Below, piece after piece: positions 662 through 14,248 of a stretch of DNA of 64,000 nucleotides. The notes below the pieces were generated by a model. The model searched no databases. It was not told the DNA's origin and saw only the letters and a program-made list of their open reading frames with translations. The translations under genes were made by a program, and so were the position numbers. Positions within the stretch are counted from its first letter, which is position 1. Each line of letters starts with the position of its first letter. Source of the DNA: Geodermatophilaceae bacterium NBWT11 (GTDB taxonomy: Bacteria > Actinomycetota > Actinomycetes > Mycobacteriales > Geodermatophilaceae); contig CP043652.1 of the NCBI GenBank assembly GCA_014218215.1, positions 3,782,001-3,846,000 of the forward strand, given 5' to 3'.

Positions 662-711
662 ACCCCCGCACGACAGACTCACCACACCACCCCCTGCGAG
701 GACGAGGACAC

Positions 712-2031
712 ATGAAGCTCTCCGTGATCGGTTGCGGTTACCTGGGCGCGGTGCACGCGGCGTCCATGGCCGAGTTGGGCCACGACGTGGTCGGCATCGA
801 GGTCGACGTGCCCAAGGCGCAGCTGTTGGCCGCCGGGAAGGCCCCGTTCCACGAGCCCGGGTTCGAGGAGCTGCTGGGCCGGTCGTTGGCCTCGGGCCGG
901 CTCCGGTTCTCCTCCGACATGGCCGACGCGGCGGGGTCGGCCGTGCACTTCGTGTGCGTGGGGACCCCGCAGAAGCGCGGGGAGTACGCCGCGGACCTGC
1001 GGTACGTGGAGGCCGCGACCGAGGCGTTGCTGGCGGTGCTGGAGCCCGGGGACCTGGTGGTGGGCAAGTCCACCGTGCCGGTGGGGACGGCGGCGCGGCT
1101 GGCCGAGCTGGTCGAGGGCAAGGTGCCCGGGGCGACGCTGGTGTGGAACCCGGAGTTCCTGCGCGAGGGGTTCGCCGTCCAGGACACCCTGCACCCGGAC
1201 CGGCTGGTCTACGGCGTGCCGGCCGGTGCCGACGGCGACCGGGCCCGGGCGGTGCTGGACGAGGTGTACGCCACGATCGTGGCCGCCGGGACACCGCAGG
1301 TGGTCACCGACTACGCCACCGCGGAGATGGTGAAGACCGCGGCGAACTCGTTCCTGGCCACGAAGATCTCCTTCATCAACGCGATGGCCGAGCTGTGCGA
1401 GGCGACGGGCGCGGACGTGAAGCAGCTGGCCGACGCGATCGGCTACGACGACCGGATCGGCCGCAAGTTCCTCAACGCCGGGCTGGGCTTCGGCGGTGGG
1501 TGCCTGCCCAAGGACATCCGGGCGTTCATGGCCCGGGCCGGGGAGCTGGGTGCGGACCAGGCGCTGACGTTCCTGCGCGAGGTCGACAACATCAACATGC
1601 GCCGCCGGATCCGGATGGTGGACCTGGCGCGGGAGGTGTGCGACGGGTCGCTGGTCGGCAAGCGCATCGCCGTCCTCGGGGCCGCGTTCAAGCCCGACTC
1701 CGACGACATCCGGGACTCACCCGCGCTCAACGTGGCCGCCCAGCTGCAGCTGCAGGGGGCCTCGGTGCGGGTGACCGACCCGGCCGCGGGGGACAACATC
1801 CGCCGGTCGTGGCCGCAGCTGGACGTGGTGGACACCGCCGAGGAGGCCGCCGAGCGCGCCGACGCGGTGCTGCTGCTGACCGAGTGGAAGCAGTTCCGCG
1901 AGCTCGACCCGGTCGCGTTCGGCACGGTGGTGGCGAAGAAGCGGGTGCTGGACGGCCGGCAGGCCCTGGACCGGGACGCCTGGGAGGCCGCGGGCTGGGC
2001 GTACCGCGCCCTCGGCCGCCGGGCCGGCTGA
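712..2031 (+). CDS. UDP-glucose/GDP-mannose 6-dehydrogenase family
   Basis: Oxidises a nucleotide sugar, most likely UDP-glucose to UDP-glucuronate, with two NAD+. The 439-residue protein starts with a Rossmann motif (SVIGCGYLGAVHAASMAELGH), has the central FLATKISFINAMAELCE helix and the catalytic Cys in GFGGGCLPKD, and ends with the UDP-binding domain (GAAFKPDSDDIRDSPAL). The ATG at 712 follows a GAGGACGAGGA ribosome-binding stretch; longer upstream reading in this frame is not supported. It lies 50 nt after the sugar transferase and 8 nt before the nucleotidyltransferase, so it may be shared between the exopolysaccharide locus and the lasso locus. GDP-mannose as substrate is less likely but not excluded. 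Confidence 0.92.
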   Translation: MKLSVIGCGYLGAVHAASMAELGHDVVGIEVDVPKAQLLAAGKAPFHEPGFEELLGRSLASGRLRFSSDMADAAGSAVHFVCVGTPQKRGEYAADLRYVEAATEALLAVLEPGDLVVGKSTVPVGTAARLAELVEGKVPGATLVWNPEFLREGFAVQDTLHPDRLVYGVPAGADGDRARAVLDEVYATIVAAGTPQVVTDYATAEMVKTAANSFLATKISFINAMAELCEATGADVKQLADAIGYDDRIGRKFLNAGLGFGGGCLPKDIRAFMARAGELGADQALTFLREVDNINMRRRIRMVDLAREVCDGSLVGKRIAVLGAAFKPDSDDIRDSPALNVAAQLQLQGASVRVTDPAAGDNIRRSWPQLDVVDTAEEAAERADAVLLLTEWKQFRELDPVAFGTVVAKKRVLDGRQALDRDAWEAAGWAYRALGRRAG

Positions 2032-2039
2032 CCGCCGCC

Positions 2040-3185
2040 GTGCCCGGGCCGCGGCCGAGCAGCCCGGGCGCCGTGGTGCTCTGGGCCGCCCGGCGGGCGG
2101 CCGGGCACGACGCGCCGCCACCGGCCTGGCGGGGGGACGACGGGGCGCTGCGCGCCGCGGTCGCCCACCACCGGGCCTGGCTGCTGCTCGCCGCGCACGG
2201 CCCCGACGTGCCCGGTGTGCCGGGGGCGCTGCTTGCCGAGGCCTGGGCCCGCCGGGACCGGGCGCGCCGGGCGCAGCTGCAGACCGACGCCGACCTCACC
2301 GTCGCCGGCGCCGCCCTGGACGCGGCCGGCGTCCGGTGGGCCTGCCTCAAGGGCCCGGTGCTGACCGCGGTGCACGCCCGGGCCGGGGCCGACCGGGCCG
2401 CCCTGGACCTGGACCTGCTCGTCGCCCCCGACCGGCTCGCCGCGGCACTCGACGCCTTCGAGGGCGCCGGCGGCGCAATGCTGACCCGCAACTTCGCGCT
2501 GCTGCGCCGCGAGCTGCCCGGCGAGGTCGCCGTCCGCGGCCGGTTCGGCACCGTGCTGGACCTGCACTGGACGCTGGTCAACCGGGCCGGCCGACGACGC
2601 CGCACCACCGTGTCCACCACGGACCTGCTCGACCGGGCCTCGCCGGTGCAGCTCGCCGGCCGTCCGGTGCCCGCGCTGCAGCCCGACGACGCCCTCGTGC
2701 ACGTCTGCCTGCACGCCGCGCTGGCCGGGGCGACCCGGGTGTCCTGGCTGCTGGACGTGACGCTGTCGGTGCAGGACCGCCCGGTCGACTGGTCCCGGGT
2801 GGTCGGCACCGCCCGGGCCTGGGGGGTGCCCGCCCCGGTGGGCCTGGTGCTCGCCCGCGCCGCGACCCTGTTGGCGGCCCCGGTGCCGCGGTCGGTGCTG
2901 CGCCGGCTCGCGGCCCCGGACTGGCGGTTGGCGGAGCGGTGGGCCGGGCCGCGCGTCCTGCACAGCACCGCCGACCTGGGCAGCTGGCCGGCCCGGCTGG
3001 CCGTCGGCTCGGCCGAGCACGCGACCGTCCCGGGACTGCTCACCGCCCGGGCCGCCCGGCTCGTCGCCGGCCGCCCGGCGGCGTTCGTGCAGGGGGCGTC
3101 GGCCCCGGGATCGGCCCTGCACCCGGCCGGGGACCACGCCGACCTCACCGCCTTCCTGCAGACCGTCGCGCAGGAGGCGGCGTGA
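2040..3185 (+). CDS. NTP_transf_5 nucleotidyltransferase family protein (lasso-locus tailoring)
   Basis: 381-residue protein of the uncharacterised nucleotidyltransferase family PF14907 (NTP_transf_5). The diagnostic LKG motif (ACLKGPVLTAVH) and the DxDLLV metal-binding motif (ALDLDLLVAPD) are present, followed by an LDLHW block. Members commonly sit in lasso-peptide loci next to a kinase. As I recall, the Bacillus pseudomycoidin homologue is linked to sugar addition on a phosphorylated lasso peptide. Here it is the first gene of the lasso operon, overlapping the next start by GTGA at 3182. The GTG at 2040 is preferred because it lies 8 nt after the dehydrogenase; GTGs at 2073 and 2076 are alternatives. 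Its substrate is unknown. Confidence 0.8.
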   Translation: MPGPRPSSPGAVVLWAARRAAGHDAPPPAWRGDDGALRAAVAHHRAWLLLAAHGPDVPGVPGALLAEAWARRDRARRAQLQTDADLTVAGAALDAAGVRWACLKGPVLTAVHARAGADRAALDLDLLVAPDRLAAALDAFEGAGGAMLTRNFALLRRELPGEVAVRGRFGTVLDLHWTLVNRAGRRRRTTVSTTDLLDRASPVQLAGRPVPALQPDDALVHVCLHAALAGATRVSWLLDVTLSVQDRPVDWSRVVGTARAWGVPAPVGLVLARAATLLAAPVPRSVLRRLAAPDWRLAERWAGPRVLHSTADLGSWPARLAVGSAEHATVPGLLTARAARLVAGRPAAFVQGASAPGSALHPAGDHADLTAFLQTVAQEAA

Positions 3186-3990
3186 CCCCCCGCTGGCTGC
3201 GCCTGCACCTGGCCGGCGAGCGCCTGCTGGAGGGCGCGGTGCACCGGGCCGAGGCGCCTGGGACGGCGTGTGGCTGGGCCTGCTGACCCCCGACCAGCTC
3301 GCCCTGCTCGACCGGCACTTCTACGACGGCGAGCCGGTCTACCGCTCCGAGGCGCACAACCGGCAGGGCCTCTTCGACTGGGAGACCCACGTGGTGGACA
3401 CCCACCTGCCGGCCGGCTGCCGGGTCGTCGTCACCGGCGCCGGCGGGGGCCGCGAGGTGCTGGCGCTGCTGGCCCGCGGGCACGACGTCGCCGGCTTCGA
3501 GCCCAACCCCACGCTGGCGGCCGTGGGCGCCACGCTGACCGCGGCCGACGGGCACGGTGCCCGGGTGGCGGTCAGTGCCCGGGACGGGTTCCCGGTGGGT
3601 CCGGGCAGCACCGATGCCGTCGTCCTGGGCTGGGGCTCCTACATGCTCGTGCCCACCCGCTCGGCCCGGGTCGCCCTGCTGCGCGCCGCGGCGGCGGCGG
3701 CCGGCGGCGGTCCGGTGCTGCTGTCCTACTTCCGGCTGCCGGCCGACCGACGCCAGTTCCGCACCGCGCTGCGGGTCGCCCGCCCGCTGCGGCGCTGGCG
3801 CGGGGCCGAGCCACCGCTGCTCGGGGACGCACTGGCCCCCAACGCGGTGCACCACTTCACCGGCGCGCAGATCGCCGAGGAGGCCGCCGCGGCCGAGCTG
3901 GTCGTGGTCGAGCGGGGCGACGGGGAGTACGGCTGGGCCGTCGTGCGGGCACCGGCCCGCACCCAGGAGACAGGGGAGGGACCACCATGA
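3182..3990 (+). CDS. Class I SAM-dependent methyltransferase-like protein, apparent -1 frame break
   Basis: Rossmann-fold methyltransferase-like protein. The SAM-binding glycine motif (VVVTGAGGGREVLAL) is followed by an acidic residue after strand 2 (AGFEPNP). The uninterrupted frame begins at GTG 3268 and gives 240 residues. However, a GTG at 3182 overlapping the previous stop gives a plausible N-terminus (VTPRWLRLHLAGERLLEGAVHRAEA) that runs into a stop at 3286. Joining the two frames near 3256 (GCGCCTGGG) needs one extra base, for example one more C, and yields EAPWDGVWLGLL. I read this as one gene with a lost base. It ends in ATGA overlap with the PqqD-like gene, so it belongs to the lasso operon. 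Its target is unknown. Confidence 0.7.
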
Positions 3991-4259
3991 GCGAGGGACC
4001 GACGATCAGGCTGCGGCCGGGGGCGGTGTCCTGGCGCGAGGCCGACGGCGAGGTGATCGCCCTGGACCTGGGCACCTCGGACTACCTGGGGGTCAACGCC
4101 ACCGGTGCGGCGCTGTGGACCCGGATCGCCGAGGGCAGCACCGCGGCCGAGCTCGTGGGCGTGCTGCAGGCGCAGTTCGACGTGTCGGCGGACCGGGCCG
4201 CCGCCGACGTGGCCGCTTTCGTCGGGGACCTCCGCACCCGGGGACTGCTCGAGACGTGA
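3987..4259 (+). CDS. PqqD-like RiPP recognition element (lasso B1)
   Basis: Small 90-residue PqqD-family protein. Such proteins form a winged-helix RiPP recognition element that binds the leader of a lasso precursor and presents it to the B2 protease and the cyclase. The typical pattern is visible: an N-terminal beta section (VIALDLGTSDYLGVNATGAALWTRI), where the LNxTGxxLW-like motif is diagnostic, then helices and the closing LRTRGLLE. Start ATG 3987 overlaps the upstream stop (ATGA) and the stop overlaps the B2 start (GTGA), so translation is probably coupled. It is separate from B2, as in actinobacterial clusters, not fused. Confidence 0.9.
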   Translation: MSEGPTIRLRPGAVSWREADGEVIALDLGTSDYLGVNATGAALWTRIAEGSTAAELVGVLQAQFDVSADRAAADVAAFVGDLRTRGLLET

Positions 4260-4693
4260 TCCCCCGTCCTGCGCCGTCCCGGTTGCACGACCCGGCCCGG
4301 TGGGGGGCCTACCGGCGGGAGCCGCTGACCGGGCGGCTCGCGCCGGCCACCCTGCGCGCGGCCTGGTGGGCCCGGACGGCGGTGCGCCGGGCCCGCCGGG
4401 CGCTGGCCGCGGACGGTGTCGACGCCGTGGTGGCCCCACCGCCGGCGCTGCCGGCCGGCGCCCGCCGCGGGGTCGAGGCCGTGCTGCGCCGCACCGCGCC
4501 GACCTGCCTGGAACGCAGCCTGGTGCTGCAGGCCTGGCTGGCCGCCCACGACGTGCCCTGCGAGGTCGTCGTCGGCGTCGCGGGCTCGACCGGCGGGGAC
4601 GGCGGGGTGCGGGCGCACGCCTGGCTCGACGTCGAGGCGCACGACCCGGTCGCCCGTGGCTACCGGGAGATCCACCGGCTGCCGCCGCGGTGA
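4256..4693 (+). CDS. Lasso peptide leader protease B2 (transglutaminase-like)
   Basis: 145-residue transglutaminase-fold cysteine protease of the lasso B2 family, which removes the leader from the precursor so that the core can cyclise. A Cys-His-Asp triad is readable: Cys84 in APTCLERSLVLQAWL, His121 and Asp125 in RAHAWLDVEAH. The CLERSL motif is characteristic of this family. The GTG start overlaps the PqqD stop and the stop overlaps the cyclase start by 4 nt. The length is normal for stand-alone B2 proteins. With the B1 and C genes adjoining it, the assignment is strong. Confidence 0.92.
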   Translation: MIPRPAPSRLHDPARWGAYRREPLTGRLAPATLRAAWWARTAVRRARRALAADGVDAVVAPPPALPAGARRGVEAVLRRTAPTCLERSLVLQAWLAAHDVPCEVVVGVAGSTGGDGGVRAHAWLDVEAHDPVARGYREIHRLPPR

Positions 4694-5850
4694 CGCCGTC
4701 GACCGCCTGGCAGCTCGACCCGCTCGAGCTCGCCGCCGGGTTCCCGCTGGGGCTGGGTCCCGGACCCGCGTTGGCCCGTGCGCTGCCGGGCACCCCGACC
4801 GCGCGCGGCGCCTTCGAGGCCGTGCTGCGCCAGGCGCTGCGCCGTCCGCCGTGCGTGGTCAGCTTCTCCGGCGGCCGGGACTCCTCCGCCGTGCTCGCGG
4901 TGGCCGCCCTCGTCGCGCGCCGGGAGGGGCTGCCGCCCCCGGTCGCGGTCACCCTGCGGTTCGCCGGGGTGCCCGCCGCGGAGGAGTCGGCGTGGCAGGA
5001 GCAGGTGGTCGCCCACCTCGGGGTGGCCGACTGGGAGGTCGTCGAGGTCACCGGCCAGCTGGACCTGGTCGGTCCCGTGGCCGCCCGCGAGACCGGTCGG
5101 CACGGGGTCCTGTGGCCGGCGAACACGCTCTTCCACGCCCCCGTGGCGGAGCGGGCGGCCGGTGGCACGCTGGTCACCGGGTTCGGCGGGGACGAGGTGA
5201 TGAGCCCCGGGTGGGCGTGGGACCGGGTCGGCCGGTTGCGCGACCGCACGAGCCGGCCGGTGCCGGCCGACCTGGTCGAGCTGGCCGGGGCGGTGGCACG
5301 TGGACCGGTGCGCCGGTGGGTGCTGGACCGCCGTCCCGAGCCCAGCGCGCCCAGCCCCTGGCTGCACCCGGGCGTGGACGCCGAGGTGCGGGACCGGTGG
5401 CGGGCCCTGCGGGCGGCGGAGCCGGTGCGGCACGACCGGGCCCTGCTCGGGCACTGGTGGACCTCGCGCTACCTGCAGGTCACCCGGCAGAGCCTGCGGC
5501 TGCTGGCCGCCGGGCACGGCGCCGCCGTGGCCCACCCGTTCACCGAGCCGGCCTTCCTGGCCGCGCTGGCGCGGGAACGGGGGCACTCCGGGCCCCGGCA
5601 CCGGACCCGGGAGATGGTCCGGCTGTTCGCCGACGTGCTGCCGCAGGCCACGGTGTCCCGGGTGGGCAAGGCGACGTTCAACGGCGCGTTCTGGGGCCCG
5701 CACACCCGGGCGTTCGTCGCCGACTGGGACGGGTCGGGGGTCGACCCCGCGCTGGTCGACGTGGCCGCGCTGCGCCGGGAGTGGGCCGCGGCCGACCCGG
5801 ACGCCCGCACCCACCCGCTGCTGCAGGCCGCCTGGGCTGCCCGGGTCTAG
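4690..5850 (+). CDS. Asparagine-synthetase-like lasso cyclase (C), lacking the glutaminase-like domain
   Basis: 386-residue asparagine synthase-related protein. Lasso cyclases adenylate the side-chain carboxyl of a core Asp or Glu and join it to the core N-terminus, making the macrolactam ring. The PP-loop for ATP is present at residues 60-66 (SGGRDSS), with a second conserved block GFGGDEVMSPGW and the KATFNGAFWG region near the C-terminus. Canonical lasso cyclases are about 500-600 residues with an N-terminal glutaminase-like domain; here the PP-loop begins almost at once, so that domain is absent. The GTG start is fixed by overlap with B2. The stop overlaps the convergent kinase by 4 nt. 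Confidence 0.88.
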   Translation: MTPSTAWQLDPLELAAGFPLGLGPGPALARALPGTPTARGAFEAVLRQALRRPPCVVSFSGGRDSSAVLAVAALVARREGLPPPVAVTLRFAGVPAAEESAWQEQVVAHLGVADWEVVEVTGQLDLVGPVAARETGRHGVLWPANTLFHAPVAERAAGGTLVTGFGGDEVMSPGWAWDRVGRLRDRTSRPVPADLVELAGAVARGPVRRWVLDRRPEPSAPSPWLHPGVDAEVRDRWRALRAAEPVRHDRALLGHWWTSRYLQVTRQSLRLLAAGHGAAVAHPFTEPAFLAALARERGHSGPRHRTREMVRLFADVLPQATVSRVGKATFNGAFWGPHTRAFVADWDGSGVDPALVDVAALRREWAAADPDARTHPLLQAAWAARV

Positions 5851-6674
5851 CGCCGGGCGAGCTCGGCGAGCAGCTGCTCGGTGGCCGCCGCCATCAGCGA
5901 CCAGTCCCGGGGCCGGGTCCACTGCAGCACCGGGACGCCGGCCAGGTCGAAGAACTGCGCCGGGTCCGGTGGGGGACGGCGCAGCGCCGCCGCCTGCACC
6001 AGCAACGGCACCCGCGCCGCCGGCGGCACCGGGCGCAGGTCGGGCGGACCCCAGGCCGGCACCAGCCACCCGGCCAGCGGGGTCGGCCCCGCCGGGGGCA
6101 CCGGCACCCGCCACCGCTCACGGCGACCGACCACGCCCATCGGGGTGCCCAGCCCGAGGTGCTCGGCGGCGCCGCGGCGCAGGTCGACCAGGCCCGGACC
6201 GGGCAGCACCTGGCGGTCGACGACCACGGCGACGTCGTCGGTGACCACGGGGTGGCCCAGCACGTGCGCCTGGGCGACCAGCGAGCTCTTCCCGGCGTCC
6301 CGGGCGCCCAGCACGCCCCACGCCCGGCCGGCGACGGACACCGCGCCGGCGTGGAAGACGTCGTGGCCCAGCCAGTGGGCGGCGATCGCGGACACCAGGG
6401 AGAGGTGCGGGTGCACCAGGTGGTCGTGCGGCAGGGGGTCGACGGTGGTGAAGTGCGCCGTCCGGGTGGCCCGGTCCAGGTGCAGGTCACCCGCACCGTT
6501 GACCATCGCGAACGCGGCCCGGTCCCCGTCCAGCAGGTCCGCGGTCAGGGTCGAGGGCCCCCGGGCCTGGCCGACCCGCAGCACCGGGGCGTCGGCCGGC
6601 ACGGGGCGCAGCAGGTGCCGGGCGTCGGTCAGGTCGGGCAGGGCGAGCCCGTAGCACCCGAGGTGCGGCGTCAC
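5847..6674 (-). CDS. HPr kinase/phosphorylase-like protein (lasso kinase candidate)
   Basis: 275-residue P-loop protein resembling HPr serine kinase. It has a Walker A-type loop at 123-131 (GARDAGKSS), the preceding DVFHAGAV segment and the downstream acidic VTDDVAVV motif at 144-151. Homologues in lasso clusters, such as the paeninodin kinase, phosphorylate the C-terminal serine of the precursor. The precursor encoded divergently here does end in Ser, which supports that role. The gene is transcribed opposite to the synthesis operon and overlaps the cyclase end by 4 nt; its GTG start lies inside the palindrome at 6665-6688. A role as a regulator-type kinase is the alternative. Confidence 0.8.
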   Translation of the reverse strand: MTPHLGCYGLALPDLTDARHLLRPVPADAPVLRVGQARGPSTLTADLLDGDRAAFAMVNGAGDLHLDRATRTAHFTTVDPLPHDHLVHPHLSLVSAIAAHWLGHDVFHAGAVSVAGRAWGVLGARDAGKSSLVAQAHVLGHPVVTDDVAVVVDRQVLPGPGLVDLRRGAAEHLGLGTPMGVVGRRERWRVPVPPAGPTPLAGWLVPAWGPPDLRPVPPAARVPLLVQAAALRRPPPDPAQFFDLAGVPVLQWTRPRDWSLMAAATEQLLAELARR

Positions 6675-6688
6675 CTAGGTGAAGCCGC
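6665..6688. promoter_or_regulatory. 24-bp near-perfect palindrome between kinase and precursor
   Basis: The segment reads GCGGC-g-TCACCTAGGTGA-a-GCCGC: a perfect 12-bp palindrome at 6671-6682 flanked, after one mismatched pair, by 5-bp matching arms. It overlaps the kinase start codon and lies about 28 bp upstream of the precursor's putative -10 box. Its position in a divergent promoter region suggests an operator, possibly for one of the LuxR-type regulators encoded downstream. That pairing is inference. Confidence 0.5.
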
Positions 6689-6715
6689 CCGGTGACCGGC
6701 CCGGGGCCGCGCACC

Positions 6716-6721
6716 TACGTT
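6716..6721 (+). promoter_or_regulatory. Putative -10 box of the precursor gene (TACGTT)
   Basis: TACGTT fits the actinobacterial TANNNT -10 pattern and lies 29 nt before the precursor start, leaving a short leader that carries the GGGAGC ribosome-binding site. No clear -35 element is seen. Confidence 0.45.
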
Positions 6722-6750
6722 CAGCGCTCCACCGACTCCAGGGAGCAACC

Positions 6751-6915
6751 GTGTTCGAGTACGAGTCACCGACCGTCACGACCATCGGGTCGCTGCACGA
6801 CATGACCCTCCAGTACAAGACGTTCGGCGCCGCCGACGGCGTCATCCTGGTCATCCCCGGCACCCCCAACGGCCCCGGCGGGGACTCCGACGAGTTCGGC
6901 AACGTCCTCAGCTGA
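6751..6915 (+). CDS. Lasso peptide precursor (A)
   Basis: 54-residue precursor starting at GTG 6751, seven nt after a GGGAGC ribosome-binding site. Residues 4-19 match the lasso leader rule YxxPxLxxxGxFxxxT with exact spacing: Tyr4, Pro7, Val9, Gly13, Leu15, Thr19. With Thr at -2 and Leu20 at -1, the core begins at Gln21 as QYKTFGAAD, placing Asp at core position 9, one of the three allowed ring positions (7-9). The core would be 34 residues, longer than most lasso peptides, with a hydrophobic GVILVIPG stretch, a Gly/Pro/Asn linker, an acidic GDSDEF part and a C-terminal Ser. Gln at core position 1 is unusual. The tail may be trimmed after synthesis. Confidence 0.88.
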   Translation: MFEYESPTVTTIGSLHDMTLQYKTFGAADGVILVIPGTPNGPGGDSDEFGNVLS

Positions 6916-6920
6916 CGCGC

Positions 6921-7553
6921 TCACCGCGGCACCAGGCCCAGGTCCAGGGCGCGCTGCACGGCCTGGGCGTGGCTGCGCACCCCGAGCTTGACGAAGATCC
7001 GCGACCGGTGGCTGTCCACGGTGCGGGCCGAGAGCCCCAGCGCCCGGGCGATGGACTTCACCGGGTCACCGGCCAGCATCGCCACCAGCACCTCCTGCTC
7101 CTTGGGCGTCAGCGCCGGCGGGCGGGGGGCGCGGGCCTCCCGCCACTGCTGCAGCACCAGCGCGGCGACGGTGGGGTGCAGGGTCGCGCGCCCGGACACC
7201 GTCTCCCGGACGGCGGTCGCCACGTCCTCGGCGGTGCACTCCTCCAGCAGCAGCACGCCCGACGCCCCGGCCAGGAGCAGCTCCGGGACGGCGCCGGCGC
7301 TCGCCCGCGGGCACACCACCAGCACCCGGGTGGCCGCCCCCAGCACCGCGGGCAGCAGCGCGGCCAGCGGGACGTCGTCCACCACCACGTCGCTGACCAG
7401 CAGCCCGGCCCCCTCCCCGCAGGCCCGGACGACGTCCTCGGCGGTCGTGGGGGTGCGCACCGGGCGCACCCAGGCGTGGGTCAGCACGTCGCGCAGCACG
7501 GACCGCACCAGGGGCGAGGACCCGGCGACCACCGCCGCCACCGCGCCGCTCAC
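6921..7553 (-). CDS. LuxR/NarL-type regulator with degenerate receiver domain
   Basis: 210-residue protein with a C-terminal LuxR helix-turn-helix (LTPKEQEVLVAMLAGDPVKSIARALGLSARTVDSH...) and an N-terminal receiver-like half. The acidic pocket near the start is replaced by AGSSP and the usual lysine near the end of the domain (AGASGVLLLEE) is missing, so phosphorylation is doubtful. It is the second gene of a two-gene operon with another LuxR-type protein (4-nt overlap), and its stop is 5 nt from the lasso precursor stop. No sensor kinase is nearby. It probably regulates the lasso locus; ligand or partner unknown. Confidence 0.8.
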   Translation of the reverse strand: MSGAVAAVVAGSSPLVRSVLRDVLTHAWVRPVRTPTTAEDVVRACGEGAGLLVSDVVVDDVPLAALLPAVLGAATRVLVVCPRASAGAVPELLLAGASGVLLLEECTAEDVATAVRETVSGRATLHPTVAALVLQQWREARAPRPPALTPKEQEVLVAMLAGDPVKSIARALGLSARTVDSHRSRIFVKLGVRSHAQAVQRALDLGLVPR

Positions 7554-8101
7554 CGGTCGTCGTCCGGGGCGGTCCGGGGCACCGGGACGCGGGTGAGCGG
7601 CACCCCGGCCGAGCGGAGCTCGTGGGCCAGCCGCACCGCCTCGACCTGCGTGGACACCCCGAGCTTGGCCATCGCCCGCTGCCTCGCCGCCTGCACCGCG
7701 CGGGGGCTGATGCCCAGGTCGGCGGCGGTCCGTGCGGCCGGTACGCCGGCCGCGACGGCGCTCAGCACGGCGTCCTCGCGGGGGGACAGCGACGGACGGC
7801 CGACCCCGGCCGGCGCCGGGGGGACGCAGGCGGCCTGGCGCACCCGCGCGGCCAGCCCGGTCAGGTCGGCCACGTCGAGGTCCTCGACGGCCACGCTGCG
7901 GGTCCCGGGGTGCCCCGACGGGCTCAGCCAGACCGTCCTGTCGAGATCGGCCGGTACGACCTCCGGCCAGCCGGCGTACGAGCCCACCAGGCGCAGCCCC
8001 GACACCCGCCCCAGCGCTGCGGCGAGGGCGGCGCGGACCAGCGGGCGCGGGTCGACGACGCCCACCGATGCAGGACCGGGCGGACCCGACGAGCCGGACA
8101 T
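7550..8101 (-). CDS. Short LuxR-type regulator (degenerate receiver)
   Basis: 183-residue protein with a C-terminal LuxR DNA-binding domain (LSPREDAVLSAVAAGVPAARTAADLGISPRAVQAARQRAMAKLGV). The N-terminal half keeps only traces of a receiver (VGVVDPRPLVRAALAAAL) and is shorter than normal. ATG 8101 is chosen because a longer frame upstream would run through the divergent ABC transporter. It is transcribed first in a pair with the other regulator, 18 bp from the exporter start on the opposite strand, so it is placed to control both directions. Confidence 0.78.
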   Translation of the reverse strand: MSGSSGPPGPASVGVVDPRPLVRAALAAALGRVSGLRLVGSYAGWPEVVPADLDRTVWLSPSGHPGTRSVAVEDLDVADLTGLAARVRQAACVPPAPAGVGRPSLSPREDAVLSAVAAGVPAARTAADLGISPRAVQAARQRAMAKLGVSTQVEAVRLAHELRSAGVPLTRVPVPRTAPDDDR

Positions 8102-8119
8102 GCGGGCGAGGCTAGTCGG

Positions 8120-9916
8120 ATGAGACCACTCAGTGCAGCTGGTCGATGGCAGAGAGTGATCAGGCGCCGGCGGAGTCTGCCGGTGGCCACCGCCGTCGCC
8201 ACGGTCTGGCGGGCCGACCGCCGGGGCACCCTCGTCGCCGGAGGGCTCGCCCTGGGCGGCGCGCTGTGCGGTCTCGGGCTGGTCGCGGCGAGCCACCTCG
8301 CGCTCCGCACGGTGCTGGACACCGGTGACGGGTCCGGACTCGTCCTCCCGCTGCTGCTCATCGCCGTCCTCACCGCCGCGTCCGGCTCGATCGGGGTGCT
8401 CACCGGGCTGCACCAGCGGGTGCTGGGCGAGCGGGTGGCCCAGGCGGTCTGGCGGTCGCTGCTGGCCTCGTGCGCGTCGGTCGACCTGGTCACCTACGAG
8501 TCCACCGGCTTCCTGGACCGGCTGGAACGGGTGCGCGGCAACGCGGTGAGCCGGCCCGCCGGCGTGGTGACCGCGGTGTTCGGGCTGGCCGGCGGACTGC
8601 TCGGCGTCCTGGTGCTGGGCGGTGCGCTGCTCACGGTGGCGCCGGTGCTGGTCCCGGTGCTCGCCGTGGGCGCCGTCCCCGCGGTGCTGCTGTCCCGCCG
8701 GGCCAGCCGCGCGGAGTTCGCCCTGGCCCGGCGCTCCACCGCGTCGATGCAGCGCCGCGGCTACCTCAAGTCGCTGCTCAGCCATCGGGTGACCGCCGCC
8801 GAGCTGCGCGCCTTCGACGCCGCCCCCGGGCTGCTGGCCCGGCACGACGCGGAGGACGCCGCACACCTGGGCCGGCTGCAGGCCCACGTGGGCGGCCGGC
8901 GACGCACTGCGCTGGCCGGTCTGGTCACCGCGGCGGTGGCCCTCGGCGCGGCGATGGTCGTGGTGGTCTGGCTGGCCACCAGCGGGCGGATCGGGCTGCC
9001 CGGCGCCGGGGCCGCCGCGGTCGCCGCCCGGCTGCTGGGCGGGCAGCTGGCCCGGGTCTTCCGCTCGCTGGGCTCGCTGGTCGAGGCCGGCCCGTTCCTG
9101 GCCGACCTGGACGCCTTCCTCGCCGACTTCCCGGCCCGGGACACCAGCGGGGTGCGGCAGACCCTGCACACCGGGCTGGCCGTCCGGTCGGTCTCCTTCA
9201 CCTACCCCGGGCAGACCCGGCCGGCCCTGGACGACGTCAGTCTCGACGTGCTGCCGGGCCGGGTGGTGGCCCTCGTGGGGGAGAACGGGTCGGGCAAGAC
9301 GACCCTGGCCAAGGTGCTGGCCGGGCTCTACGCCCCGGCCTCCGGGGCGGTCTGCTGGGACGGGCGGGCGCTGGGTCGCGACGACCTCCGGGCCAGCACC
9401 AGCGTGCTGTTCCAGGACTTCCTGCGCTACCAGATGTCGGTCACCGACAACGTCGCCGTCTCGGGCGGGCCCGGGCGGACGACCGACCCCGACCGGGTCG
9501 CCGCGGTGCTGGACCGGGTCGGTGTCGGCGACGCGGTGCGCCGGCTGCCGCACGGGCAGGACACCGTGCTGGGCGTGGAGCTCGGCGAGGGCGGCGACCT
9601 GTCCGGGGGCCAGTGGCAGCGGGTCGCCCTGGCCCGGGCGCTCTACCGGGACAGCGACCTGGTGGTGCTCGACGAGCCCAGCGCCGCCCTGGACCCCCGG
9701 GCCGAGCACGAGCTGTTCCGCGACGTCCGGGCCGTGCTGGACGGCCGGGCCGCCGTGCTCGTCTCGCACCGCTGGTCCAGCGTGCGGCTCGCCGACGTGA
9801 TCCACGTGCTGCACGAGGGCCGGGTGGTCGAACACGGCAGCCACGAGGAGCTGGTCGCCGCCGGCGGCCGGTACGCCGAGCTGTACGCCCTGCAGGCCGA
9901 CGCCTTCGGCGGCTGA
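8120..9916 (+). CDS. ABC exporter, fused membrane and ATPase domains (lasso export, D)
   Basis: 598-residue half-transporter with an N-terminal six-helix-type membrane domain and a C-terminal nucleotide-binding domain. Walker A (GENGSGKTT, near residue 390), the signature LSGGQWQR, Walker B (DLVVLDEPSAALDP) and the H-loop His (VSHRW) are all intact. It probably pumps the mature lasso peptide out and gives self-protection, the usual job of the D protein in these clusters. ATG 8120 lies 18 bp from the divergent regulator. No peptidase C39 domain is present, as expected where B2 removes the leader. Confidence 0.88.
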   Translation: MRPLSAAGRWQRVIRRRRSLPVATAVATVWRADRRGTLVAGGLALGGALCGLGLVAASHLALRTVLDTGDGSGLVLPLLLIAVLTAASGSIGVLTGLHQRVLGERVAQAVWRSLLASCASVDLVTYESTGFLDRLERVRGNAVSRPAGVVTAVFGLAGGLLGVLVLGGALLTVAPVLVPVLAVGAVPAVLLSRRASRAEFALARRSTASMQRRGYLKSLLSHRVTAAELRAFDAAPGLLARHDAEDAAHLGRLQAHVGGRRRTALAGLVTAAVALGAAMVVVVWLATSGRIGLPGAGAAAVAARLLGGQLARVFRSLGSLVEAGPFLADLDAFLADFPARDTSGVRQTLHTGLAVRSVSFTYPGQTRPALDDVSLDVLPGRVVALVGENGSGKTTLAKVLAGLYAPASGAVCWDGRALGRDDLRASTSVLFQDFLRYQMSVTDNVAVSGGPGRTTDPDRVAAVLDRVGVGDAVRRLPHGQDTVLGVELGEGGDLSGGQWQRVALARALYRDSDLVVLDEPSAALDPRAEHELFRDVRAVLDGRAAVLVSHRWSSVRLADVIHVLHEGRVVEHGSHEELVAAGGRYAELYALQADAFGG

Positions 9917-9926
9917 CCCGCGGGCC

Positions 9927-10733
9927 TCAGCCGGAGAGCCGCCCGCAGTCGGCCGGGCCCAGCGCGACCGGCTGCCCGCCGGCCAGCTCGGCGAGCACGA
10001 TCGACTGCACCAGGGGGTCGCGGGGCAGCTGGCCGTGCTCGACGGTCGAGTCCGCGCAGACCGACTGCACGGTCAGGTTGAGTGCGCCGTCGAGCTCGGC
10101 GGAGTCCGGCGGGGTGACGGTCTGGTCCACCGTCGTCCAGATCGACACCCACGTCGGCCCGGCCGGCGTCTCGTCGTCGGCGTTCAGCTCGCGCAGCAGG
10201 TCGCTGTCGGTGGTCAGCTGCCGGCACCCCTCGGGGCACTGGTCGGGGGCGAGCTCGGACCCGAGGTCGGCCAGCGTGGTGCCGTGGTGCGGGGAGCCCA
10301 GGGTGAGGATGCGGCGGGCCTGCTCGGCCCCGCCGTCGGCGGCCCACAGCCGGGCGATGACGCCCCCCGCGGAGTAGCCGATCACGTCCACGCTGCTGGC
10401 CCCGGTCCGCGCCAGCGCGTCGTCCACCGCGGTGCCGAGCACGGCGGCCGAGGCGTTCATGTCCCCGGTGCCCTCGTCGGGCACGTCGACGACCGTGGCG
10501 TCCCGGCCGACGGCGTCGAGCCGGTCGGCGAGCGTCTGCAGGGAGGCCGTCGAGCCGCCGTACCCGGGCACGAGCAGCACCGGGCCCAGCTCGGACTGGG
10601 ACACCTCGGTCGCGTCGTCGGCGGTGAGCCGGGGGACCAGCAGCGCCGCGGTCAGCGCCAGGGCGGCGACCACGACGGCGGCCAGCAACCCGAGCACGAG
10701 CCGGCGACGGGCGGGGGAGAGGCTGGCGAACAC
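9927..10733 (-). CDS. Secreted or membrane-anchored lipase / alpha-beta hydrolase
   Basis: 268-residue alpha/beta hydrolase resembling triacylglycerol lipases. An N-terminal hydrophobic segment (LVLGLLAAVVVAALALTAALLV) acts as a signal or anchor. The oxyanion part LLVPGYGGS and the nucleophile elbow GYSAGG (Ser) are clear, as is the following SPHHGT block. A later Asp and the His in STVEHGQL probably complete the triad. It is convergent with the ABC exporter (10-nt gap) and seems to be the first gene outside the lasso cluster. Substrate unknown. Confidence 0.85.
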   Translation of the reverse strand: MFASLSPARRRLVLGLLAAVVVAALALTAALLVPRLTADDATEVSQSELGPVLLVPGYGGSTASLQTLADRLDAVGRDATVVDVPDEGTGDMNASAAVLGTAVDDALARTGASSVDVIGYSAGGVIARLWAADGGAEQARRILTLGSPHHGTTLADLGSELAPDQCPEGCRQLTTDSDLLRELNADDETPAGPTWVSIWTTVDQTVTPPDSAELDGALNLTVQSVCADSTVEHGQLPRDPLVQSIVLAELAGGQPVALGPADCGRLSG

Positions 10734-10777
10734 CCCACCACTGTCCCCGGTTTCCCCGGTCCTGGTGGACTGTCCCC

Positions 10778-11464
10778 GTGCCGTCCTTCCTCAGCCGCGA
10801 CGAGTACTTCGACGCGTGGTCCACCTGGCACGGCGGCACCGACCCGCGCGACAGCGGGATCGTCCGCGGCTGGCTGACCATCGCGTACACCCTGGCGCGG
10901 CCGCTGTCCGGGCTCTCCCCGCTGCTGGTCACCGCGCTGGGCCTGGTCGTGGCGCTGGCCTCGATCGGCCCCGCCGCGGCCGGCGGGCTGTGGCTGGTCC
11001 CCGCCGGGCTGCTGATCGGGCTGTCCGGGCTGCTGGACTCCCTGGACGGCGCGCTGGCCATCGCGGGCGGGCGGGCCAGCCGGCGGGGGTTCGTGCTGGA
11101 CTCCGTCGTCGACCGGCTGACCGAGGTCGCCTACGCCCTCGCCTTCTGGGTCGCCGGGGCTCCCGGCTGGCTCGTGGTCGCCTTCGGCGCGCTCTGCTGG
11201 CTGCCGGACTACCTGCGCGCCCGGGCCGGGCAGGCCGGGGTCGACGAGACCGGCGCGGTGTCGGTGTGGGAACGGCCGACCCGGGTCGCGATGGCCGGGA
11301 TGACGCTCGGCGGGGCCGGGGTCTCCTCGCTGGTCGGACTGGCCGAGCCGGTCGTGGTGGCCGGCGCCGCGGTGGGTGTGCTGCTCGGCGTCGTCGGCAC
11401 CACGCAGCTGGGCCTGCAGCTGCGCAGGGCGCTGGACGGCCCCGGTCCCGTTACGCTCGGGTGA
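10778..11464 (+). CDS. CDP-alcohol phosphatidyltransferase family membrane protein
   Basis: 228-residue membrane enzyme of the CDP-alcohol phosphatidyltransferase family, which joins a CDP-activated lipid or alcohol to an acceptor alcohol. The catalytic aspartate pattern is present in a slightly divergent form: DSLDGALA, then GFVLDSVVD nine residues later. The AR pair of the classic motif is replaced by AI. Several hydrophobic helices follow. The GTG start at 10778 lies in a 44-nt gap from the divergent lipase. The head-group alcohol cannot be predicted. Confidence 0.82.
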   Translation: MPSFLSRDEYFDAWSTWHGGTDPRDSGIVRGWLTIAYTLARPLSGLSPLLVTALGLVVALASIGPAAAGGLWLVPAGLLIGLSGLLDSLDGALAIAGGRASRRGFVLDSVVDRLTEVAYALAFWVAGAPGWLVVAFGALCWLPDYLRARAGQAGVDETGAVSVWERPTRVAMAGMTLGGAGVSSLVGLAEPVVVAGAAVGVLLGVVGTTQLGLQLRRALDGPGPVTLG

Positions 11465-11535
11465 ACCCCGGGGGGGCTGCCGAGCAGCCGGCCACCGGGT
11501 CCGTGTGAGCCCGCACCCCCCTCTGGAGCCCCACC

Positions 11536-12528
11536 GTGTCCGTCGCCGTGACCGGTTCGATCGCCACCGACCACCTGATGACCTTCCCGGGCACCTTCAC
11601 CGAGCAGTTCGTCGAGGGCCAGATGGAGAACGTCTCGCTGTCGTTCCTGGTCGACGACCTGGTGCAGCACCGCGGCGGCGCCGGGGCCAACATGGCCTAC
11701 GGCATGGGCCTGCTCGGCCTGACCCCGGTGCTCGTCGGCGCGGTCGGCAACGACTTCGACGACTACGAGGCCTGGCTGAACCGGCACGGGGTGGACACCG
11801 CCTCGGTGCACTGGTCCGAGCTCAAGCACACGGCCCGGTTCACCTGCACGACCGACTCGGCGAACAACCAGATCGCGTCGTTCTACTCCGGCGCCATGGC
11901 CGAGGCCTCGATGATCGAGCTGGCCCCGGTGGAGAAGCGGGTCGGCACCCTGGACCTGGTCATCGTCGGCCCGAACGACCCCACCGCGATGGTGCAGCAC
12001 ACCCAGGAGTGCCGGGACCGCGGCTACGCGTTCATGGCCGACCCCTCCCAGCAGCTGGCCTGGGCCGACGGCGAGATGATCCGCACCCTGGTCGACGGCG
12101 CCGAGCTGCTGTTCACCAACGAGTACGAGGCCGCGCTGCTCAAGCAGAAGACCGGCTGGAGCCACGCCGAGGTGCTCGACCGGGTCGGCACCTGGGTGAC
12201 CACCCGGGCCGCCAACGGCGTGCGGGTCGAGCGGGTGGGGGAGGAGACGATCGAGGTCATCGCCGTCCCCGAGACCCGCCCCGTGGAGCCCACCGGCGGC
12301 GGCGACGCGCTGCGCGCCGGCTTCGTCGCCGCCCGCCAGTGGGGCCTGTCGCTGGAGCGGGCCACCCAGGTCGGCTCGGCCGTGGCCACCGCCGCCGTCG
12401 AGGTCGTGGGCACCCAGGAGTACTCGCTGCCCCGGGAGTCGTTCCTGCAGCGCTTCGAGGCCGCCTTCGGTGCGGAGGCCGCCGCCGAGGTGGCCCCGCA
12501 CCTGCCTCACTCCCCGCGCAACGCCTGA
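11536..12528 (+). CDS. PfkB-family carbohydrate kinase (adenosine-kinase-like)
   Basis: 330-residue ribokinase-fold kinase. It resembles the actinobacterial adenosine kinase/CbhK group, which phosphorylates adenosine or sugars. The N-terminal RGGAGANMAYGMGLLG and the C-terminal PTGGGDALRAGF motif, with the catalytic Asp of the anion hole, are visible; the usual GAGD is GGGD here. A GGAG site lies 8 nt before GTG 11536. Its end overlaps the convergent flavin-reductase gene by 22 nt. Confidence 0.85.
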   Translation: MSVAVTGSIATDHLMTFPGTFTEQFVEGQMENVSLSFLVDDLVQHRGGAGANMAYGMGLLGLTPVLVGAVGNDFDDYEAWLNRHGVDTASVHWSELKHTARFTCTTDSANNQIASFYSGAMAEASMIELAPVEKRVGTLDLVIVGPNDPTAMVQHTQECRDRGYAFMADPSQQLAWADGEMIRTLVDGAELLFTNEYEAALLKQKTGWSHAEVLDRVGTWVTTRAANGVRVERVGEETIEVIAVPETRPVEPTGGGDALRAGFVAARQWGLSLERATQVGSAVATAAVEVVGTQEYSLPRESFLQRFEAAFGAEAAAEVAPHLPHSPRNA

Positions 12529-13160
12529 CCGATCGAGGGGTCCTCGGACCACTGGCTGAAGGGGATCCGCTTGATCTCCTTCAGCTCCCCGATCGTCGCC
12601 CACTCGTTGCCGCCCAGGCGGGCCAGCGGGTTCAGCTCCTCGATCCGCGGGCGGCCGTCGCGGACGACGGTCTCCCACGCCGTGGCGTGCACGACCCGAC
12701 CGAAGACGACGGTGCTGTCGCCCAGCCGGATCGTCGAGTGCAGCACGCACTCCAGGCTCACCGGGGACTCCGCGACCCGCTTGGCCGCCACCACCGAGCT
12801 GTCCTCCAGCGTGACACCGGTCTGCTCGGCCTCGTCGTGGTCGGGCGGGAAGTCGGTCCCGGTGGCGTTGACCTGCTCGAACAGCGCCTCCGGCGTCAGG
12901 TTGACGGTGAAGTCACCGGTCGCCTCGACGTTGTTCAGGGAGTCCTTGCGGCCCACGGACGTGAACTGCACGATCGGCGGGTCCACGCAGGCCACCGTGT
13001 AGAAGCTGTGCGGGGCCAGGTTGTGGCCCCCGTCGGCGTCGCGGCTGCAGACCCAGGCGATCGGGCGGGGGACGACGACGGAGTTCAGCACCCGGTAGAA
13101 GGCCCCGGTGCCCATCTCGGCCGGGTCGAAGTGCGTGCGGGCGTGGTCGGGAGAGGTCAC
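12507..13160 (-). CDS. Flavin reductase-like domain protein
   Basis: 217-residue flavin reductase-like (FMN-binding split-barrel) protein. Visible features include the start region MGTGAFYRVLNSVVVPRPIAWVCSRD, the NLAPHSFYTVACVDPP strand and the SLNNVEATGDFTVNL block typical of this family. It binds FMN and probably reduces flavin for a partner monooxygenase, which is not identified here. GTG 13160 is the first start after the upstream glycosyltransferase stop (11-nt gap), so it is probably the last gene of the carotenoid operon. Confidence 0.83.
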   Translation of the reverse strand: MTSPDHARTHFDPAEMGTGAFYRVLNSVVVPRPIAWVCSRDADGGHNLAPHSFYTVACVDPPIVQFTSVGRKDSLNNVEATGDFTVNLTPEALFEQVNATGTDFPPDHDEAEQTGVTLEDSSVVAAKRVAESPVSLECVLHSTIRLGDSTVVFGRVVHATAWETVVRDGRPRIEELNPLARLGGNEWATIGELKEIKRIPFSQWSEDPSIGQALRGE

Positions 13161-13171
13161 GCCGTCCAGTC

Positions 13172-14248
13172 TCACCGCAGCGTGCGGCCCCGCCACTCCA
13201 GGGTGCCGCGCCGGCGGCCCAGCACCGAGCCGACCAGCAGCACGTCGAGCAGTGCGACCCCCAGCGGGTGGGTCAGGCTGTCGGGCCACACCCGGCCGCC
13301 GATGCGGGCGGCGGTCACCGCCCGGCCCAGCACGCCGGCGGCGTAGCCGACCAGCCCGGCCCGGGTCCCGCTCAGCGGGGGGACCACGTACACCGCCGTC
13401 AGCGCCGCCCCCGCCAGCAGGCTGCCCACCGGTGACCCGCCCAGCGCCGACCACAGCGACTTCTCGTAGCCGGCCCGCAGCGGCGCCCAGCCCTCGTACA
13501 TCCGGGTCGCGGCCAGCGTCGAGCCCTCGACCACCACGCCCCGCCCGCCCGAGCGCTTCAGCGCCCGCAGCAGCGCGATGTCCTCGAGCACCTCCCCGCG
13601 CACCGCACCGTGCCCGCCGGCCCGCTCGTAGGCGTCCCGGCGGACCACCAGGAACTGCCCGTTGGCTGCAGCCAGCGAGGGCCGGGGCGAGCGCTCGGCG
13701 AGCCGCAGCGGCAGCGTGGTCGCCCACAGCCACTGCTGCAGCGGCTGCACCAGCCGCTCGGCCGGGGTGACCGCGAGCTGCCGGGGCCAGGGCGAGACCA
13801 GGTCCAGGTCGTGCGCGTCGAGCAGCGCCACCGCGGCGGCAACGGCGTGCGGGGCGAGCCGGACGTCGGCGTCGAGGAACACCAGCACGTCGACGTCGCC
13901 GGCCCCGGCCGCGCCCTGGGCGCAGGCGGCCGGCTTGCCCAGCCACCCGGCCGCGGGCGGGGTGGCCGTCCGCACCTCGACGCCGTGCGCCCGGGCGATC
14001 GCGGCCGTGCCGTCGGTGGACCCGTCGTCGACCACCACCGTGTGCAGGTGGGGCACCCCGGTCTGGGCGGCCACCGACTCCAGGCAGCCCGTCAGGGTGG
14101 CCTCCTCGTCCCGGGCCGGGACGACGACCCGCACCCGGTGGCGCACCGGCGGTGGGTCGGCCGCCGGCCGCCGGAGCAGCGCGGTGTTGACCACGGCGTG
14201 CACCGCCGTGGCCACGCTGATCCCGGCGAGCAGCGCGACCGGCCTCAC
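13172..14248 (-). CDS. Family 2 glycosyltransferase, CruG/CrtQ-like
   Basis: 358-residue membrane-associated GT2 enzyme. The core VVVPARDEEATLTGCLESV, the DDGSTDGT motif, the DxD metal motif in VFLDADVRL and a later GEVLEDIAL acidic block are present, followed by C-terminal hydrophobic helices. Its start overlaps the cruF-like stop by GTGA. CruF/CruG pairs glycosylate carotenoids such as myxol-type or bacterioruberin-type pigments, and CrtQ-type enzymes glucosylate apo-carotenoids. Direct evidence here is only the fold and the neighbours. Confidence 0.8.
   Translation of the reverse strand: MRPVALLAGISVATAVHAVVNTALLRRPAADPPPVRHRVRVVVPARDEEATLTGCLESVAAQTGVPHLHTVVVDDGSTDGTAAIARAHGVEVRTATPPAAGWLGKPAACAQGAAGAGDVDVLVFLDADVRLAPHAVAAAVALLDAHDLDLVSPWPRQLAVTPAERLVQPLQQWLWATTLPLRLAERSPRPSLAAANGQFLVVRRDAYERAGGHGAVRGEVLEDIALLRALKRSGGRGVVVEGSTLAATRMYEGWAPLRAGYEKSLWSALGGSPVGSLLAGAALTAVYVVPPLSGTRAGLVGYAAGVLGRAVTAARIGGRVWPDSLTHPLGVALLDVLLVGSVLGRRRGTLEWRGRTLR

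Follow-up and report, generated by a model that had tools for sequence, protein, structure and literature searches.

A probable phosphorylated-type lasso peptide cluster with a minimal cyclase in Geodermatophilaceae bacterium NBWT11

The window analysed here, a stretch of 64,000 nucleotides from Geodermatophilaceae bacterium NBWT11 (contig CP043652.1), corresponds to bases 3,782,001-3,846,000 of a 4.59-Mb single-contig genome, in which PF13471, the family of the leader peptidase B2, was matched at one place. It carries a ten-gene cluster whose membership in the lasso and phosphorylated lasso kind is well supported and which appears complete and is probably functional. On the best reading, its product would be of the same kind as paeninodin and pseudomycoidin: a lasso peptide that is phosphorylated and perhaps also glycosylated. 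An earlier sequence-only reading had proposed a complete lasso cluster here, and the genes that it named are found in their places, with active-site residues, leader pattern and Asp9 that all fit. The Cys84/His121/Asp125 triad of B2 is read in the sequence, the PqqD-like B1 and the ATP-binding cassette (ABC) exporter match their families, and the 54-aa precursor A satisfies the leader pattern YxxPx[L/V/I]...G.....T(-2), with an Asp nine residues past the predicted cut. From left to right, the cluster runs NTP_transf_5 (NTP), methyltransferase-like (MT), B1, B2, C, divergent K, A, two minus-strand LuxR genes and the exporter:

2040..3185, + strand: NTP_transf_5 nucleotidyltransferase, PsmN-like candidate (PF14907, E 2.9e-32; probable GTG start at 2040)
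3268..3990, + strand: S-adenosylmethionine methyltransferase-like protein (MT), start uncertain (Methyltransf_23/25 below cut-off; daptide_MTase E 0.0025)
3987..4259, + strand: B1, PqqD-like recognition element (RRE) of ribosomally synthesized and post-translationally modified peptides (PF05402, 3.7e-18; lasso_PqqD_Strm 7e-12, below cut-off)
4256..4693, + strand: B2, transglutaminase-like leader peptidase, C84/H121/D125 (PF13471 and NF033537, both over cut-off)
4690..5850, + strand: C, short cyclase, SGGRDSS from residue 60, Lys327 (PF00733)
5847..6674, - strand: K, HPr-kinase-like peptide kinase (H108, GARDAGKS P-loop, D146-D147)
6751..6915, + strand: A, precursor, 54 aa, GTG start after AGGGAG (from sequence and homologues)
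6751..6810, + strand: leader of A, 20 aa, Y4-P7-V9-G13-T19(-2) (from alignment)
6811..6912, + strand: predicted core of A, 34 aa, Gln1-Ser34, with Lys3 and Asp9 (T(-2) rule on the sequence)
6921..7553, - strand: LuxR/NarL-type regulator 1 (GerE 1.5e-16)
7550..8101, - strand: LuxR-type regulator 2, start inferred from a longer frame (GerE 2.8e-11 on 7550-8038)
8120..9916, + strand: D, ABC exporter (permease and ATPase), MsbA/type-I-secretion-like (ABC_tran 1e-30; ATG at 8120)
2033..9925, 7,893 bp: the whole cluster as one presence/absence block (blastn against the same-genus stretch L129)

The sequence-only reading was right in seeing an asparagine-synthetase-like cyclase with SGGRDSS but overlooked its shortness. 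C counts 386 aa and holds only the C-terminal synthetase half, the N-terminal amidotransferase-like domain of canonical full-length lasso cyclases being absent. Residues 1-386 of its structural model (pLDDT 92.6) align from about residues 126-180 onward of beta-lactam, carbapenam and asparagine synthetases and of TsnB9, and the Asn_synthase domain starts at residue 43, against 211-232 in three full-length cyclases. In an alignment with 11 full-length cyclases, Lys327 falls on their RxxK lysine, and SGGxDS is kept; furthermore, the ATP-binding and catalytic-Lys motifs are invariant among 27 short cyclases. These 27 sequences form one clade (support 100/100) against 13 others, namely the 11 full-length cyclases and two of three asnB genes; 20 Cs added later stand outside this outgroup comparison. 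The near copies L058 and L059, together with L069, whose frame has no SGG motif, were left out of set A3 (L denotes loci and G genomes). Measured from stop to stop, the frames of 5/29 and 6/20 short Cs have more than 131 residues ahead of SGG, and those of the 11 full-length ones 234-334. The long stretch in the window's C is an overlap with B2; in L019 it belongs to a natural B2-C fusion, a single open frame at 7690-9636 on the minus strand. The open-access literature searched, whose scope did not extend to the original descriptions of paeninodin and pseudomycoidin, made no mention of lasso cyclases that lack the N-terminal domain. Such a natural 386-aa enzyme would be small and tractable for structural work and peptide engineering, and would offer a direct test of the role of the missing half.

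Altogether 45 short-cyclase stretches were examined, window included (29 + 16), along with 20 comparison loci, hand-picked from mostly strong B2 matches away from short cyclases and carrying a full-length C in 13 cases. The leader of A ends in ...HDMTL, so the predicted core runs from Gln1 to Ser34. A strict pattern combining leader and acid occurs once in the window and in none of 60 Markov resamples. None of the library models for lasso leaders gave a match in the scans of the cluster proteins. Counting from T(-2), 45 of 60 short-cyclase precursors have an acid at core position 9 and eight more at position 8 (53/60). This conserved acid is the strongest sign that the half-size enzymes would still close lasso-type rings, a function that rests on co-conservation and not on a characterised enzyme. 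Six leader-pattern matches were judged spurious (L016 4947, L060 7178, L064 5487, L065 5395, L165 10435 and L166 8190), and the search for precursors in L068 and L179 found none.

An HPr-kinase-like gene lies in the fetched stretch of 28/29 and 15/16 short-cyclase loci (43/45), against 2/20 comparison loci. All 43 kinases show H...GxxxxGKS/T...[DE]D, with DD in 42 and ED in L026, and K itself has the His-Lys-Asp-Asp set of paeninodin-type kinases. The precursor ends in Ser in 50 of 59 short-cyclase cases with a known end (L171 runs off its contig and is excluded), against none of 14 kinase-free comparison precursors, which were picked by eye and come, but for one, from loci with a full-length C. 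The conserved terminal Ser and the kinase motif strengthen the phosphate addition suggested by the sequence-only reading; its +162 and +176 additions may be expected by analogy with pseudomycoidin and because a UDP-sugar dehydrogenase gene lies next to the cluster. Homologues with a described function are PadeK/ThcoK/SyanK, PsmK/PsmN and BsfK (excerpts of PMC9266682, PMC8498205 and PMC10368454).

The tailoring genes, already assigned to the cluster by the sequence-only reading, prove to belong to it. In L129 (genome G008), blastn joins window positions 711-2032 (89.6% identity) and 9926-14000 (92.4%) at one base: a dehydrogenase gene directly adjoins a lipase-like gene and the block 2033-9925 between them is absent. 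This junction indicates that the block was gained or lost whole, with all ten genes inside (NTP, MT, B1, B2, C, K, A, two LuxR and exporter), and such a precise absence in a same-genus genome makes the tailoring genes and the regulators part of one unit. C has no match anywhere in G008, a genome that is only 73% complete. The nine-base word CGGCTGACC stands near both block ends, at 2025-2033 and 9910-9918; both copies overlie stop codons, of the dehydrogenase on the left and of the exporter on the right. K and MT are missed or barely reached by NCBIfam and Pfam models, and neither a signal-peptidase match nor an ATP-grasp match, the mark of graspetides, was obtained among the ten cluster proteins scanned. 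The MT gene is present in 6/29 short-cyclase loci, window counted, and in 1/16 further loci.

From the genes, motifs, block boundaries, Asp9, C-terminal Ser and missing N-terminal domain, which are all there in the sequence, we infer a pathway, including its reactions, their order, the threading and the sugar. The YxxP leader would be bound by B1, and K would phosphorylate the C-terminal Ser on the linear precursor; the nucleotidyltransferase would next decorate that phosphate, probably with a sugar. B2 would cleave after Thr19-Leu20, then the short C would adenylate Asp9 and join it, as a macrolactam, to the freed alpha-amine of Gln1. The 25-residue tail would be trapped by the ring and the product exported by the ABC protein. 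The methyltransferase may contribute a lineage-specific change, and the two LuxR regulators would control the unit. A phosphorylated-type lasso cluster with a minimal cyclase, following this whole pathway, is in our estimation a fairly probable explanation of the locus. A bolder version, which we hold to be unlikely, would make the minimal cyclase a separate lasso branch tied to C-terminal phosphorylation, with ring closure in the window's clade moved to Lys or to a ring of 10-11 residues, and a phospho-glycosylated lasso peptide made for, or attached to, the exopolysaccharide whose genes precede the cluster.

Several points weigh against the phosphorylated lasso reading. We know of no characterised enzyme in the short-cyclase clade, whose stem is long (2.16) and which is not nested inside the full-length cyclases, so that phylogeny does not by itself give a shared function. 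Gln is unusual at core position 1 and could form pyroglutamate. The top-ranked fold match of K is PEPCK and not HPr kinase. The close relatives L015 (..SN) and L019 (..SP) have no terminal Ser, nor have six f16-type precursors (L172, L173 and L175-L178), and the described target of BsfK is Ser3 rather than the C-terminus (excerpt of PMC10368454). Lastly, 7/60 precursors have their first acid, from position 7 on, only at position 10 (L016, L017, L018 and L165) or 11 (L021, L050 and L180), and each of these lies within the window's clade or close to it. As to the f16-type precursors themselves, they have G1-rich cores, mostly GGxxGxDDG, and in 5/6 a Ser stands one or two residues before the end.

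The late acids could reflect rings of 10-11 residues, a shifted cut or the use of a lysine side chain as the amine, each of which is possible near the window. For the last of these, the macrolactam of the window's clade would link a conserved Lys, through its side-chain amine, to the Asp found six positions later, leaving a short free N-terminus. Lys-x5-Asp is found in the window, L015-L021, L165 and L180 (ten precursors) and in L060b, L061 and L069, that is in 13/60, and the spacing from predicted cut to Lys varies among them (2, 3 or 4 residues). Counting atoms, a ring closed between Lys(N-epsilon) and the Asp of Lys-x5-Asp would have 26, which falls between ordinary lasso rings of 8 residues (25) and of 9 residues (28), whereas rings from the alpha-amine to Asp10 or Asp11 would have 31 or 34; rings of 10-11 residues have no report in the open-access literature searched. 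The motif is kept in eight of the nine members of the window's clade, and also in L021 and L180, but L050 has Lys-x6-Asp and L171, the sister of L180, is without such a Lys. Moreover, the Lys may serve recognition only, and the window precursor obeys the ordinary Asp9 rule and so does not discriminate between the ring options. This shifted closure appears unlikely. A stronger claim, that the invariant Lys and Asp of eight sequences prove a Lys-Asp crosslink, was cut back, since 47/60 short-cyclase precursors lack a Lys in that position and 53/60 have the acid at 8/9. Because Lys-x5-Asp stays mostly fixed while its distance from the cut shifts, the limits of lasso ring size become testable.

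Another explanation is that C closes no ring, or performs some other amidation, and that the product is a phosphorylated and glycosylated linear peptide like those of the LPP family. The lack of the N-terminal half of C would fit this, as would the content of LPP clusters, which share an RRE, an HprK-like kinase, an NTP transferase and an MsbA-like exporter and are found in capsule loci (excerpt of PMC13381572). L115 (genome G744), possibly an actinobacterial linear phosphopeptide cluster at ~2600-7500, has B1, B2, K, NTP and exporter, and no cyclase was found there in 12 kb. However, the ATP-binding and catalytic-Lys motifs of C are invariant, a linear peptide would have no need of the acid at 8/9, and B2 belongs to the lasso-type peptidases, where LPP clusters use an SpI peptidase; a linear product seems quite improbable. 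The cluster could also be decayed or silent in this strain, as its patchiness (short C in 7/112 family genomes) and its absence from a close relative might suggest. But the frames are open with intact catalytic residues, a ribosome-binding site stands before the precursor, and identity to the nearest relative is still 72% in C; we hold a decayed or silent cluster to be very improbable.

According to excerpts of the cited papers, phosphorylated lasso clusters with a kinase, some with a nucleotidyltransferase, are known from Bacillota and Pseudomonadota (PMC8498205), with others in rumen Bacillota (PMC7533575) and Bradymonas (PMC10368454). The window shares B1, B2, C, K, the C-terminal Ser, N and the ABC exporter with the paeninodin/pseudomycoidin systems (Bacillota; SyanK from Pseudomonadota), and also a polysaccharide setting: paeninodin and LPP clusters often sit with capsule loci of Bacilli (PMC13381572). 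It differs in its actinomycete host, its 34-residue core by the T(-2) rule, its Tyr4 leader, where paeninodin RREs favour Trp (PMC13381572), its extra methyltransferase and LuxR pair, and probably its half-size cyclase of a separate clade. LPP clusters, as described in PMC13381572, have an SpI peptidase and no macrolactam cyclase, whereas the window has B2 and C. The Bsf cluster of Bradymonas sediminis has A, B1, B2, C, D, kinase and nucleotidyltransferase in common with it, but an Ile(-2) leader, Ser3 phosphorylation and a C-terminal Asp (PMC10368454). Full-length actinobacterial lasso cyclases and beta-lactam and asparagine synthetases share with C the synthetase-domain fold, SGGxDS and the catalytic-Lys region, but carry the N-terminal domain that it lacks.

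In genome searches, each including the window's own genome, C as query had matches in 7/112 family genomes, and its profile in 20/394 sampled class genomes and 27/397 sampled order genomes (family members recounted). Of the 19 genomes new in the order search, 15 were fetched and G897, G911, G1056 and G1083, with weaker or split matches, left out. Modestobacter sp. Leaf380 encodes a cyclase 72% identical to C, and the B2 family has matches in 99/394 class genomes. A plasmid collection gave no match to C or NTP, and four records when a diverged B2 served as query. One of these, Thalassobaculum (L128), has B1, B2, NTP and an exporter beside an asparagine-synthase-related protein of 630 aa; for a kinase it shows only a weak match (E 7e-4), which does not fit the kinase motif pattern. 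Kinase and NTP matches also occur in L027 and L028, from the window's phylum, whose cyclase frames are long (624 and 595 aa) and match weakly. These three loci suggest that the short cyclase is probably no general feature of kinase-type clusters. antiSMASH would probably flag such loci, and databases may therefore already contain them without a name.

Two genes precede the block:

32-661, + strand: sugar transferase (PF02397, 6.6e-69)
706-2031, + strand: UDP-glucose/GDP-mannose dehydrogenase (PF03721/PF00984/PF03720)

In L133, the region upstream of the window, 5/7 scanned frames match polysaccharide families (a pyruvyltransferase, two glycosyltransferases, a Wzy-like protein below cut-off and a Wzx-like flippase) and 2/7 have no match. 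Together with the two genes above, these frames place the cluster after the end of a polysaccharide locus. Homologues of the sugar transferase or dehydrogenase occur in 14/29 and 1/16 short-cyclase loci, many of them near copies, and in 0/20 comparison loci; the neighbours scanned in L059, L067 and L050 form no full polysaccharide locus. The polysaccharide linkage is therefore only suggestive outside the window's own family. The recurrence of kinase, C-terminal Ser and polysaccharide setting outside Bacillota hints at a shared cell-envelope or biofilm role.

Two other loci deserve mention. L118 (genome G582), kept apart from the comparison precursors, has three Trp-type leaders (W..P) near 1266, 2627 and 3382, whose peptides all end in PAS, and an HPr-kinase-like gene within the same 11.5 kb. 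In L059, an EF-Tu-type GTPase gene, which we take to be CysN-like, and an inositol-phosphatase-family gene stand directly before B1 (3448-6459); sulfate activation for tailoring is possible there.

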